Source of the DNA: an uncultured Sulfolobales archaeon | GTDB lineage: Archaea; Thermoproteota; Thermoprotei_A; Sulfolobales; Desulfurococcaceae | Reading direction: 5' to 3' | DNA: 8,448 nt | NCBI GenBank assembly: GCA_938003605.1 | Contig: CALKYD010000114.1 | Coordinates: forward strand, 1 to 8,448 | Shown here: positions 1,998 to 5,586 of the stretch, piece by piece | Layout: every line of letters begins with the position of its first letter | Position numbering within the stretch: the stretch's first letter is position 1 | Notes under the pieces: generated by a model | The model's database searches: none | What the model was told of the DNA's origin: nothing | What the model saw: the letters and a program-made list of their open reading frames with translations, nothing else | Made by a program: the position numbers and the translations under genes

Positions 1998-3230
1998 ATG
2001 TCTGCTTGGGATGTAATAAGGGAGGAGTTAGAGAAGAAGAGCGTATTTAGAGGAAAGGAGAGCCTGGCCCCCGAGTTCCTCCCAGAGAAGCTCCCCCATA
2101 GGGAAGAGCAGTTGCGTGAACTAGTAGCAATGTTCAAGCACTTAGCCATAAGTCCAGGCAGCTTCAGCCAGAAAGCCCTATTGATTGGAGGCGTTGGAAC
2201 AGGGAAGACTGCTACAGCAAGGATTTTCGGGAGGGACTTCACTAGAGCTCTCTTAAAGCAAGGCATTTCAGTTAAGTACGTCCACATAAATTGCCACAGG
2301 AATAGACAACTGTACAATATAGTGCTCGACATAGCTAGGCAGATAAACGTGCCTCTACCGAACAGAGGCTTATCAGCTTGGGAGATGTACTTAACTATAT
2401 TGAATCACTTAGATGAGGAGGATGGTTACGCCATAGTGGCATTAGATGAATTCGACTACTTCGCTAGAATATCTGGCAGGGATGCCGTATACTTCCTAGT
2501 CAGGACATACGACGAGTACGCTGACATGATTAAGAGAATGAACTTCGTGTTCATAACTAGGGATCCATCGAATCTATCACTCTTAGATAGTGCTACTGAG
2601 AGCTATTTGCTTAGACATGTAGTTAAGCTAAATCCATATACTTCCAGAGAGCTCCTCGACATACTGAAGTATAGAGCTGGACAAGCATTCTACGAGGGAA
2701 CAGTAGATGAAGATGCATTAAAGTACGTTGCTGAGCTAGAGGGGTATGACAGAGGTGGTAGAGGCAACGCTAGGTTTGCCCTAGAGCTACTGATGCTTGC
2801 CGGGGAAATAGCTGATAAAGAGGGGTGCCTCAAAGTCTCCGTAGAACACGTTAGGAGGGCTGTTACAGCCCTCAGCCCAGACATAATAAACGTATCTGAC
2901 GCCATATACTACTTACCTCTACACGAGCTACTCCTACTGTGGGCTATAATCAGGTTGTTGAGGAGAACGGGAATGTCATACGTATCAATGGGGGATGCTG
3001 AGTCTGAGTACGTAACTCTATGTGAAAGCATTGGAGAACAGCCTAGGAGGCACACTCAAGTATATGAATATGCAATGAATCTGAAGAGAGCATCAATAAT
3101 TGACGCTAAGCCCAGCGGGAAGGGTAGGAGGGGGAGGACCACAATGCTTAGCGTAAAGTACGGGCCTCTAGACGCACTTGAAAAACTCGTAGAGGACCTA
3201 GTGGCAAAGAAGCGTGGAGAGCCGGGTTGA
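1998..3230 (+). CDS. orc1/cdc6: Orc1/Cdc6 replication initiator protein
   Basis: This AAA+ initiator binds origins and recruits MCM. From ATG 1998 it has 410 residues, normal for the family. The N-terminal signature PEFLPEKLPHREEQL leads into Walker A GGVGTGKT (Lys70), Walker B ALDEFD (Asp150-Glu151) and a sensor-2-like GNARFALELL (about 256-265). A C-terminal winged-helix domain follows (about 303-407), with YEYAMNLKRASII as its recognition end and a basic wing KPSGKGRRGR. The sensor-1 region reads FITRDPSN, with Arg where many Orc1-1 proteins have Asn; this resembles Cdc6-2-type paralogues, but I am not sure of the paralogue. TTG at 1989 is an in-frame alternative start, but it directly abuts GGTAGG. 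ATG 1998 has GTGGTAGG/GGAG at workable spacing. It is divergent from gins23-mcm. Its stop overlaps the next gene by 4 nt. Confidence 0.95.
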   Translation: MSAWDVIREELEKKSVFRGKESLAPEFLPEKLPHREEQLRELVAMFKHLAISPGSFSQKALLIGGVGTGKTATARIFGRDFTRALLKQGISVKYVHINCHRNRQLYNIVLDIARQINVPLPNRGLSAWEMYLTILNHLDEEDGYAIVALDEFDYFARISGRDAVYFLVRTYDEYADMIKRMNFVFITRDPSNLSLLDSATESYLLRHVVKLNPYTSRELLDILKYRAGQAFYEGTVDEDALKYVAELEGYDRGGRGNARFALELLMLAGEIADKEGCLKVSVEHVRRAVTALSPDIINVSDAIYYLPLHELLLLWAIIRLLRRTGMSYVSMGDAESEYVTLCESIGEQPRRHTQVYEYAMNLKRASIIDAKPSGKGRRGRTTMLSVKYGPLDALEKLVEDLVAKKRGEPG

Positions 3231-3430
3231 GCGAGCTGAATGAAGCGTGTAGAGTAATACTTGAGACCCTGTCTAAGCACGGCGAGCTAAATGTAACAAG
3301 CATAGTGAAGCTAACTGGGCTCAGCTTTAGGACAGTCAATAGTAAGTTGAGAGAACTTGAGGTAAGGGGCTTAGTAACTGAGAGAAGGTACGGTAGGCTA
3401 AGGCTAGTGAGAATTAAGGGAAGTGCGTAA
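3227..3430 (+). CDS. Small winged helix-turn-helix DNA-binding protein
   Basis: The 67-residue protein consists of almost nothing but a winged-helix domain. Helix 1 is ACRVILETLSKHG, the helix-turn-helix is NVTSIVKLTGLSFRTVNSKL, followed by RELEVRGLV and a beta wing ERRYGRLRLVRI. This layout matches MarR/ArsR/Lrp-like DNA-binding domains without an effector domain. It starts at TTG 3227 within TTGA, where the TGA is the orc1 stop; GTGGAG lies 7 nt upstream. The overlap implies translational coupling with orc1, so the two products are probably made together. It may regulate the divergent promoters or assist the initiator, but neither is shown by sequence. The fold is confident and the role is unknown. 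Confidence 0.85.
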   Translation: MSELNEACRVILETLSKHGELNVTSIVKLTGLSFRTVNSKLRELEVRGLVTERRYGRLRLVRIKGSA

Positions 3431-3450
3431 GGGGACGGCGGCTTAGCGCT
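3431..3450 (-). other. GC-rich 3' tail of the tRNA-Asp 5' half (putative trans-pairing arm)
   Basis: Immediately after G37 the minus strand reads AGCGCTAAGCCGCCGTCCCC. GC-richness stops at the boundary with the stop codon of the convergent winged-helix gene. In split tRNAs such a tail pairs with the leader of the 3' half to form the BHB for the splicing endonuclease. Here C36-G37-A would be the 5' bulge and the following bases the outer helix. Oddly, 3435-3443 repeats the tRNA 5' end exactly (9-nt AGCCGCCGT, also at 3483-3491). Confidence 0.5.
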
Positions 3451-3490
3451 CGACAGGCCCGCATACTGTACCGGGCTATACTACGGCGGC
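3451..3490 (-). tRNA. 5' half of tRNA-Asp(GUC), candidate split tRNA gene
   Basis: Reading down from 3490: acceptor 5' strand GCCGCCG, T8-A9, D-stem GTAT, D-loop AGCCCGGTACA (with A14, G15, G18-G19, A21), D-stem GTAT, G26, anticodon 5' stem CGGGC, then CTGTCG (C32-U33-G34-U35-C36-G37). The D-stem pairs as G-U, U-A, A-U, U-G, as in many tRNA-Asp. The anticodon is GUC. After G37 the expected 3' stem GCCCG is absent (GCGCT is found), and no variable loop, T-arm or 3' acceptor follows within the adjacent gene. The break is at 37/38, the canonical archaeal splice position, as in the tRNA-Pro of this window. Split tRNA-Asp(GUC) genes are known from a few Desulfurococcales (to my recollection Aeropyrum and Thermosphaera). 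The alternative is a dead 5' tRNA fragment. Confidence 0.75.
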
Positions 3491-3516
3491 TCACTGTACT
3501 TACACGAAAACTTCTC

Positions 3517-3525
3517 CTAATAAAC
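3517..3525 (-). promoter_or_regulatory. TATA box for the tRNA-Asp half
   Basis: The minus strand reads GTTTATTAG, preceded by the purine-rich GGAGAA that could serve as BRE. Its centre is 31 nt from the tRNA 5' end. The TATA element of the intact tRNA-Pro gene in this window has the same spacing, which supports independent transcription starting near 3495. Confidence 0.5.
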
Positions 3526-3535
3526 TTCTCCACGG

Positions 3536-3670
3536 CTACTCATTCTTAAGGCTTTGCAGGACGTTGAAGAGCCCTCTGCGCATCCTAATAGATCTTGGGG
3601 CTAACAGCGTTGCAAAGCCCCTCATTACTGGTGCATCCCTAACTATACTTCCGTAACCTAAGGCAATCCA
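3536..3670 (-). other. In-frame 44-codon open extension after the DUF2070 stop
   Basis: Directly after the TAA of the DUF2070 gene the same frame stays open for 44 codons, beginning WIALGYGSIVRDAPVMRG and ending at TAG 3536-3538. It is Arg-rich and would follow the last membrane helix as a cytoplasmic tail. It could be a tail cut off by a recent stop mutation, a stop that is read through, or chance. No independent start with a ribosome-binding site is visible. The TATA element of the tRNA half lies just beyond it. Confidence 0.25.
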
Positions 3671-5305
3671 TTAAATGACTATGATCAGCGGTATAGCTAT
3701 GTAGTATGCTAGGAGTAGTAGAATTGTTAGTGGAATAGCTCTCTGCATAAATTCATCAACTTTGCCCACAAAGCTGCAGAAAAGCTCTAGTTCATCTTCA
3801 ACAATGCTTAGCTTGAAGCAGACTTTGCTGCATCCACTCATGGCTCTGGAAGCAAGCTCCTTTACAACGTTCTCTAACTCAGCTGTAAGAACTACTGGCG
3901 TATAGGCGTTGCCTGGAATAATTCCTGTAGCCACGTGATCATCATTAGTCATCACTATAACATAGTTATAGCCACTAGCCCTAATGACTTCCTCAAGGGA
4001 TTCCCGAACTCCTTCAGCCATGTTGTTCCCAGGCACGTAGAGTATTCCCAGGGGTTCTCCACTAATGATCATTGAGACGAAGACCACGTCTCCGAGGACT
4101 CCCGGAGTATTCTCCACTTTAGAGTAGGCTACAGATACGCACGCCTCCTTAAAGAACTCCTTAACTGAAGCCAGTCTTTCAACAATTGACTCTGCAAGTC
4201 CCTTGATGCCGTAGAGCTCTAAGTCCTTTGAAAGCACTTCGTTATGTGAATCAACAAGTATTACCTCTTGACAGCCCCTCCTGCTAGTTAACTCGTTTAC
4301 ATACAGCTGTAGTTCATAGGGCAGGTCATCTATGCCCCCCTTCCTGCTTATAAAGGCTATGGCTATCTTATTAAATGGTATGACTGTGGCGCTCCAATCC
4401 CTCAGCGAGAGCGTGAAAGGCCTCCCAATCAATAGTTCCCCACCGTCCTTTACGCTCTCCAGAATTTCCTCAGCATACTTGAGGGAATAGTCTTTAGACA
4501 CTATGTTTCTCTCATGGCTTCCCATTCCATGTAGGACTAGGGCCTTTAAACCCCTTTCACAGGCCTTCTCCCAGACTACTTGAGGGAAGTCACTGCTGCC
4601 TATGTCTCTAAATGGGCCGAAGTGTATATCTGGGTAGATCATTAGTAGCTGTCCTCCGCTAACCACGCATGCCTTAACTCTACTTCTACAGCTCTTCCTT
4701 CTAAAGACTCCCTCTATGCTTCTATCTTGCATAACCCACGTCCTCAGATAGCTCGACCCTAGTTCTATTGCGCTAACGCCATCAACTCTCTGTAGAGCTA
4801 TTAAAGCCATTATCGCTGCCCCAACGATGTATGGGATTAGCGCTTTACTGAAGGCTTCAACAACTCCTCCAAGAGCTATAGCTATTAATGCGGGCACTGC
4901 GAGTAAAGCCATTGATGTAGTTATTGAGCGCTTGTTGAGCCCCATAAATCCCACTATGATTGGAATGGGGGATAGAGATGCCAGCGCTGTAAGCTCTATT
5001 AATGATGCTTCTCTGGAGAACAACTTGTTGGCTAGTACGTAGAGCAATACATAAGTACTTGAAAACGCAGCTAAGCCGAGGAGCCTTGAAGCCTTGGATA
5101 AAGCATTGCTGGTCCTACGCAATACAGTACATTCCACTAAGTAAGTCACGCTAAGCACTATGAGCGCGTTTAAACGATGCGCAGGGCTTAATGAGAGGAA
5201 TATAGTTAAGTAGAGCAATACATTAAGGACTATTAAGAGCTTTAACGACGGCAGATGGAAAAGCAACCTATAGTACTTTAATGCAGGTTTCCTAAGCTCG
5301 TTCAT
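3671..5305 (-). CDS. DUF2070 family integral membrane protein
   Basis: This 544-residue archaeal membrane protein belongs to a family of unknown function. Residues 1-175 hold about six hydrophobic helices. A soluble domain (about 195-520) follows, and one last helix (about 525-544) ends the protein. The soluble part carries family motifs rich in possible metal ligands: PDIHFGPF (225-232, His228) with IGSS, LHGMGSH (258-264, His259 and His264), VDSHN (351-355, Asp352 and His354) and NDDH (454-457). These suggest a metal-dependent enzyme facing one side of the membrane, which is an inference. ATG 5305 begins the conserved-looking stretch; the ribosome-binding site is weak (GGCAGG). It lies downstream of tRNA-Pro on the same strand, 182 bases away, with its own TATA element. 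The frame stays open after the stop, so the true C-terminus may be questioned. Confidence 0.88.
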   Translation of the reverse strand: MNELRKPALKYYRLLFHLPSLKLLIVLNVLLYLTIFLSLSPAHRLNALIVLSVTYLVECTVLRRTSNALSKASRLLGLAAFSSTYVLLYVLANKLFSREASLIELTALASLSPIPIIVGFMGLNKRSITTSMALLAVPALIAIALGGVVEAFSKALIPYIVGAAIMALIALQRVDGVSAIELGSSYLRTWVMQDRSIEGVFRRKSCRSRVKACVVSGGQLLMIYPDIHFGPFRDIGSSDFPQVVWEKACERGLKALVLHGMGSHERNIVSKDYSLKYAEEILESVKDGGELLIGRPFTLSLRDWSATVIPFNKIAIAFISRKGGIDDLPYELQLYVNELTSRRGCQEVILVDSHNEVLSKDLELYGIKGLAESIVERLASVKEFFKEACVSVAYSKVENTPGVLGDVVFVSMIISGEPLGILYVPGNNMAEGVRESLEEVIRASGYNYVIVMTNDDHVATGIIPGNAYTPVVLTAELENVVKELASRAMSGCSKVCFKLSIVEDELELFCSFVGKVDEFMQRAIPLTILLLLAYYIAIPLIIVI

Positions 5306-5487: not shown

Positions 5488-5586
5488 TGGGGCCGCGGGG
5501 ATTTGAACCCCGGGCCACGGGCGCTCTAGGCTACTTTGGGGAACAGCTCCCCAGGCCCGCATCCTACCAAGCTAGACGACGGCCCC
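5488..5586 (-). tRNA. tRNA-Pro(GGG) with a 25-nt intron
   Basis: The tRNA folds as acceptor GGGGCCG/CGGCCCC, D-stem GTCT/GGAT with loop AGCTTGGTA, anticodon stem CGGGC/GCCCG, and T-arm CGGGG-TTCAAAT-CCCCG, with discriminator A73 and no encoded CCA. The anticodon loop is CTGGGG + C38, giving anticodon GGG (proline). The 5' exon is 5549-5586, the intron 5524-5548 and the 3' exon 5488-5523; the spliced tRNA is 74 nt. It stands alone on the minus strand with its own TATA element, back to back with the 97-residue gene. Confidence 0.96.
5524..5548 (-). other. Canonical BHB tRNA intron at position 37/38
   Basis: The central helix pairs exon CTGG (32-35) with intron CTAG. The 5' bulge is G36-G37^A and the 3' bulge is A-G^C38. 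The outer intron helix is GCTG/TAGC with a 10-nt loop. Both cuts fall after the second bulge base, as expected for the archaeal splicing endonuclease. It provides a template for reading the tRNA-Asp half at 3451-3490. Confidence 0.9.

Follow-up and report, generated by a model that had tools for sequence, protein, structure and literature searches.

The 5' half of a tRNA-Asp gene in the window

The window analyzed here is a stretch of 8,448 nt from an uncultured Sulfolobales archaeon. Its minus strand carries 40 nt that read as the 5' half of a tRNA-Asp(GUC) gene, with a promoter-like element ahead of them and a GC-rich tail behind them. The window itself shows the 5' half only. For comparison we used the genomes of two congeners, G001 and G073; G073 and G002 are one genome, with identical coordinates (record CALIML01). 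The features of interest in the window are the following.

3451..3490, minus strand: tRNA-Asp(GUC) 5' half, 40 nt, read from the sequence, matching the contiguous tRNA-Asp of relatives and conserved in G001 and G073
3431..3450, minus strand: GC-rich 3' tail of the 5' half, 20 nt, identical in G001 and with three differences in G073
3516..3529, minus strand: BRE/TATA-like promoter element of the 5' half, AGAAGTTTATTAGG, scored with a matrix from 42 G001 tRNA genes
3227..3430, plus strand: winged-helix (HTH) ORF, a neighbor only, from the ORF list and Pfam HTH_24
5488..5586, minus strand: tRNA-Pro(GGG) with an intron at 37/38, separate from the split gene, Rfam RF00005, 50.5 bits

Read from 3490 to 3451, the minus strand gives GCCGCCG UA GUAU-AGCCCGGUACA-GUAU G CGGGC CUGUCG, that is, a defect-free 5' half composed of the acceptor strand GCCGCCG, U8 and A9, a D arm (GUAU/GUAU), G26, CGGGC, and C32 U33 G34 U35 C36 G37. 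Except in the D loop, it equals the 5' part of the contiguous tRNA-Asp of relatives. The anticodon GUC occupies 3454-3452, and the 37/38 splice site falls between 3451 and 3450. At 3450 the sequence departs from the tRNA and AGCGCUAAGCCGCCGUCCCC (3450-3431) begins; this tail consists of the third bulge nucleotide, A, and then GCGC-UAAG-CCGCCGUCC(CC). The HTH ORF is convergent with the 5' half, and its stop codon abuts the tail.

The promoter element starts at -39, and its TATA core is centered near -31. It scores at least as high as 37 of the 42 contiguous G001 tRNA genes from which the matrix was built, a score reached by 0.16% of 5000 random G001 60-mers. These readings bear out what a first-pass annotation, made from the letters alone, had described: a 40-nt tRNA-Asp 5' half intact to G37, an exit from the tRNA exactly at the 37/38 splice site, a 20-nt GC-rich tail in place of the 3' half, and a TATA element about 31 nt upstream. 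It had also described a bulge-helix-bulge (BHB) motif at 37/38 of the tRNA-Pro, and our own reading of the sequence agrees: that gene is in one piece, and its 37/38 intron lies in a BHB with the central helix CUGG/CUAG. As that annotation expected, scanners pass over the 5' half. ARAGORN without introns reported no tRNA in the window, missing the intron-bearing tRNA-Pro too, and the Rfam tRNA search of the window (E up to 1) returned the tRNA-Pro at 5586-5488 alone, leaving the 5' half unreported.

Among the genomes compared, G001 is nearest to the window, with 20% of 31-mers in common. By kinship assignment, the genus belongs to the family of G082, which we take as Thermosphaera aggregans. 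Half and tail together (60 nt) match the window at 100% identity in G001 and at 93% in G073, in which one D-loop base and three tail bases differ. Across the three species (the window, G001, and G073), promoter, half, and tail are kept; apart from the promoter, the sequence upstream of the half has diverged. The 5'-half promoter of G073 scores in the middle range (at least as high as 14 of the 42 tRNA genes; reached by 4.6% of random 60-mers). HTH and Cdc6 genes lie beside the 5' half in all three species. A DUF2070 gene adjoins it in the window and G073; in G001 this gene lies 7 kb off, in the opposite relative orientation. The break in synteny between DUF2070 and the 5' half (G001 L010, about 744-9501, against window 3431-5305) is occupied in G001 by MCM and Cdc6 genes and by ORFs that by eye resemble a corrinoid protein and a methylamine-type methyltransferase.

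A complementary 3' half in two congeners

An exact search for the tRNA 3' end GGTTCRAATCCCGGCGGCGGC gave four matches in each genome (G001 and G002), namely two tRNA-Glu genes, one CAU tRNA, and one orphan.

G001, C11:132440-132497, minus strand: orphan tRNA-Asp 3' half, exact 3'-end search
G002 (= G073), C12:17210-17267, plus strand: orphan tRNA-Asp 3' half, exact 3'-end search

The orphan reads GGACGGCGGUAAGGCGCGC-GUAG-AG^A-GCCCG-UGACC-CGGGUUCAAAUCCCG-GCGGCGGC-G, where the caret marks the cut and the last base is G73; the leader in G073 has one extra G at its start. Its 35-nt 3' exon runs AGCCCGTGACC...GGCGGCGGCG. In order, the locus comprises an element resembling a promoter, a leader that complements the tail, GUAG pairing with CUGU, the bulge AG^A38, GCCCG, a T-arm, CGGCGGC, and G73. 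The first-pass annotation had proposed searching for such a GCCCG/T-arm/CGGCGGC half with a complementary leader, and the search yielded one orphan in each congener. Its forecast of the partner was right as to the leader, four nucleotides pairing with CUGU, two bulge bases (AG), base 38 (A), GCCCG, the T-arm, and CGGCGGC; the four nucleotides it had suggested, ACAG, are GUAG instead.

Both orphan halves carry G73, which we take to be the Asp discriminator, as do the contiguous tRNA-Asp genes of relatives (e.g. G058 and G078-G081); both near-identical tRNA-Glu genes carry A73. Joined at 37/38, the halves equal, apart from D-loop bases, the tRNA-Asp that relatives such as G058 encode contiguously. 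The promoter-like element AAACATTTATAAGG of the 3' half scores at least as high as 39 (G001) and 37 (G073) of the 42 tRNA genes. An archaeal split tRNA requires two halves, which are present in both congeners, and separate promoters, which the matrix scores indicate at the level of sequence.

In G001, 33.5 kb separates the halves, which are on opposite strands; in G073 they are on different contigs. The two congeners share the gene downstream of the 3' half. On its upstream side G001 has a gene (by eye, the RFC large subunit) that was not found in the 20 kb around the G073 3' half; with the shift of DUF2070, this means that within the genus synteny is broken upstream of both halves. As a check for the ancestral site, we looked for the neighbor of the contiguous tRNA-Asp of G058 (eIF2-alpha-like by eye), which was seen beside neither half. 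A plasmid search gave no result.

A contiguous tRNA-Asp(GUC) was looked for among the Rfam tRNA matches (E up to 10), all 46 in G001 and 41 of 43 in G002, and none was found; the two matches omitted are T-arm fragments of ~20 nt. The sole TGTC near the anticodon position among those matches lies inside the intron of a CAU tRNA. The combination that the first-pass annotation had named as counting against a split gene, a complete tRNA-Asp(GUC) with no complementary 3' half, thus occurs in neither congener. With completeness at 91% (G001) and 88% (G073), both assemblies could lack a contiguous Asp gene that the genomes have.

Since the 3' half was found by its exon, its leader provides an independent test of pairing. 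The tail/leader duplex of G001 has an energy of -32.5 kcal/mol compared with a mean of -19.2 for dinucleotide-shuffled leaders, 1 of 2000 being as good; for G073 the values are -32.0 and -22.1, with 6 of 2000 as good. When 25,947 sequence windows (52 kb) of G001 were paired with the tail, those at -32 or below all fell in one of two places, the leader of the 3' half or the opposite strand of the tail itself. In G073 (9,988 windows, 20 kb), one unrelated non-tRNA site pairs as well as the leader (-32.3 versus -32.2). The Asp tails reach only -15.2 to -15.6 with the leader of the initiator tRNA described below (G001 tail, -15.6); among 26-nt stretches ahead of the other G001 Rfam tRNA matches, the best reaches -15.3 with the Asp tail. 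A poorly designed degenerate leader pattern did not single out the leader (29 hits versus 19 for the reversed control in G001; 62 versus 50 in G073).

The helper helix is interrupted, consisting of GCGC (4 or 5 bp), an internal loop around UAAG/UAAG, and a further 9-10 bp. One change in the G073 tail breaks a pair (U-A to C.A), and no compensatory change for it was seen. The tail also repeats, at window 3434-3442, the sequence AGCCGCCGT from the start of the tRNA half (3483-3491). Tail and leader therefore resemble a copy of the acceptor stem, which may hint at how the helper helix originated.

A canonical BHB can be drawn for the paired halves, with the central helix CUGU/GUAG and the bulges CG^A and AG^A. 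The computed minimum is a slipped register, possible because the leader contains GCGCGC, and lies below the BHB structure in both genomes (-77.3 versus -57.2 in G001; -78.7 versus -49.6 in G073). The energy model likewise disfavors the BHB of T. aggregans (-59.2 versus -73.4), and it folds even the spliced tRNA-Asp into a non-cloverleaf.

Proposed trans-splicing and rival readings

Taken together, the evidence from sequence makes it very probable that this locus is the 5' half-transcript gene of a split, trans-spliced tRNA-Asp(GUC). The TATA promoter would drive an RNA of ~60-65 nt, whose tail would pair with the leader of the 3' half, itself transcribed on its own. The anticodon region of the paired halves would then adopt the BHB described above, the splicing endonuclease EndA would cut it, and RtcB would join 37 to 38 to give the mature tRNA-Asp. 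Profile searches of G001, G073, and G082 found two PF01974 (EndA-type) matches and one RtcB (PF01139) match in each genome. We infer that the window genome also has the 3' half, and the spliced product is probably the cell's sole Asp tRNA.

The 40 nt could instead be a dead tRNA fragment, such as an integration scar, with an ordinary tRNA-Asp in unassembled DNA. The assemblies are indeed incomplete, and partial tRNA pieces do occur in these genomes: a degenerate tRNA-Arg at G001:C13:60096-60156 and an orphan 3' part of a tRNA-Arg at G002:C2:777-843, copies that are themselves possible integration scars. However, a dead fragment would hardly agree with the retention of half, promoter, and tail in three species whose upstream flank diverges, nor with a matching 3' half that has its own promoter and complementary leader in both congeners, neither of which yielded a contiguous gene. 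We regard this reading as very unlikely.

Less likely still is alternative pairing, in which tRNA-Asp and tRNA-Glu would use one 3' half in common, in the manner of the two tRNA-Glu of Nanoarchaeum. The G001 tRNA-Glu(UUC) does agree with the halves fully in its 3' body and nearly so in its 5' body, but both tRNA-Glu are encoded with their two parts in a single gene and have A73, whereas the orphan 3' half has G73 and a leader matching the Asp tail. Splicing in cis of one long transcript with a large intron would fit the interruption of tRNA-Asp at 37/38 in 7 of 40 family genomes (among the matches listed); yet each half has its own promoter-like element, and halves 33 kb apart on opposite strands cannot flank one long intron in G001, so that we give this reading the least credence of the three. 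The same distance and orientation of the G001 3' half rule out a circularly permuted gene.

The split tRNA-Asp proposed here may have a further feature in its 3' half. After G73 both congeners read CUCUCUAC and then diverge. The trailer GCUCUCUAC, made up of G73 and the next 8 nt, is the exact complement of GUAGAGAGC, a stretch that spans the central-helix strand, the splice bulge, and bases 38-40. The G001 3' half folds at -36.6 with the trailer compared with -21.8 without it. A 7-bp form of this complementarity is present in three genomes of the Thermosphaera genus; by eye, it was not seen in A. pernix, the split tRNA-Lys of Staphylothermus, or the intron-bearing tRNA-Asp genes inspected. 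The hairpin could be protective or gating. More specifically, but tentatively and against our own expectation, the 3' half might be a self-closed precursor whose trailer hides the splice strand and protects the half until the 5' half displaces the trailer. If true, this would be a built-in check on tRNA trans-splicing in two lineages.

Split tRNAs among relatives and a candidate split initiator tRNA

According to PMC3218864, split tRNAs are known from few archaea, their ancient or recent origin is debated, and a tRNA-Asp(GUC) split at 37/38 has been published for Aeropyrum pernix and T. aggregans. The split of tRNA-Asp is itself thus already known from two other genera; what differs here from the published adjacent halves is that the halves are unlinked. 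In the open-licence literature searched, including the available parts of PMC3218864, PMC4390854, and PMC8450103, we found no report of a split tRNA in the present genus.

An unguided pattern search recovered the published T. aggregans case in G082, its 5' half lying at 41,001, the position listed in Table 1 of PMC3218864, and the same convergent split is present in G083 and G084, from the T. aggregans genus. The A. pernix tRNA-Asp (G014, 372,080) and the tRNA-Lys of Staphylothermus hellenicus and S. marinus (G076 and G077) were read at their published coordinates. T. aggregans shares with our genus the 37/38 split, the 40-nt 5' exon, an identical 35-nt 3' exon, the AG^A bulge, and complementarity between a 3' trailer and the splice region of the 3' half. 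It differs in that its halves are adjacent and convergent, whereas 33 kb separates those of G001 and those of G073 sit on two contigs, with other neighbors, and in that its helper helix is an uninterrupted 13 bp.

A. pernix has the same split tRNA, splice site, and AG^A bulge, without trailer complementarity by eye. In PMC3218864 its halves share a strand, with 121 nt between them and a helper stem of 14 bp, in contrast to the unlinked halves here; the paper gives a perfect 13-nt pairing for Staphylothermus. It also reports RT-PCR and northern support for the A. pernix split.

The exact anticodon-arm sequence GTATGCGGGCCTGTCG was found in 36 of 40 family genomes, the exceptions being G067, G075, G087, and G093. 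Among the matches listed and the loci fetched, tRNA-Asp is contiguous in 24 of these 36, interrupted by an intron at 37/38 in 7, and split in 5 (G001, G073, and G082-G084, among the matches listed). The introns measure 27 to 448 nt in six genomes, that of G094 being cut by a contig end. The longest, in G070 (C494, L150), has one frame open throughout its 448 nt, encoding 149 residues, perhaps, by eye, a homing endonuclease. Initiator tRNA introns reach ~1.3 kb in some family members, and an apparent tRNA-Trp(CCA) with a long intron lies at G001:C11:189402-189546 (L136). Archaeal tRNA-Trp is known to carry a long intron with an embedded C/D box RNA.

The trailer complementarity shared with Thermosphaera led us to consider a common origin of the two splits. 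Against this speak the differing contexts and a DUF2070 tree (31 sequences, one gene), in which the genus joins G074 and stands away from the Thermosphaera group, not as its sister, although the join with G074 consists of long branches and may be false; the tRNA-Asp of G074 is contiguous. On the simplest reading of the sequences, the genus is apparently a third independent lineage with a split tRNA-Asp, and tRNA-Asp would have been split three times at the same bond within one order. With contiguous, intron-bearing, and split forms among relatives, and unlinked halves next to published adjacent ones, a series leading from an intron through adjacent halves to scattered ones would be testable within one family.

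A second tRNA of the genus, the initiator tRNA-Met(CAU), is also encoded in two pieces.

G001, C11:151307-151519, plus strand: two-piece initiator tRNA-Met(CAU), read from the sequence
G073, C19:10867-11114, minus strand: two-piece initiator tRNA-Met(CAU), read from the sequence

This tRNA is the sole initiator found in either genome. Its pieces read AGCGGGG...CUCAUA^AGCACUCCUCAACG and CGUUGAGGAGUGC-UAAG-AG^ACCCCG..., separated by 139 or 174 nt; with the cut placed after A37, the 5' exon measures 38 nt. A perfect 13-bp pairing joins tail and leader (-32.5; 0 of 2000 shuffles as good), and the central helix CUCA/UAAG contains one C.A mismatch. A TATA-like element between the pieces is conserved, while much of the other gap sequence differs and the length changes by 35 nt. 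Its scores are modest, at least as high as 15 and 22 of the 42 tRNA genes and reached by 4.5% and 1.8% of random 60-mers. The pieces may therefore give two transcripts, or one with a long intron, and the initiator tRNA may be a second split tRNA of the genus.

Nanoarchaeum equitans has a split initiator tRNA-Met(CAU) with the same 37/38 site, its halves being ~32 kb apart (PMC3218864, Table 1) compared with 139 and 174 nt on one strand here. No split initiator tRNA-Met outside Nanoarchaeum was reported in the same open-licence literature, including the available parts of PMC3218864, PMC4390854, and PMC8450103. The Desulfurococcales cases of PMC3218864 are reported to have one split tRNA per genome, with which a split initiator tRNA in this genus, if confirmed as such, would contrast. 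The 5' piece is flanked by GCAGGGG...CCCCTGC, and in both genomes the pieces lie within ~5 kb of EndA-type and RtcB genes (G001:C11:146822-151519 and G073:C19:10867-15548).
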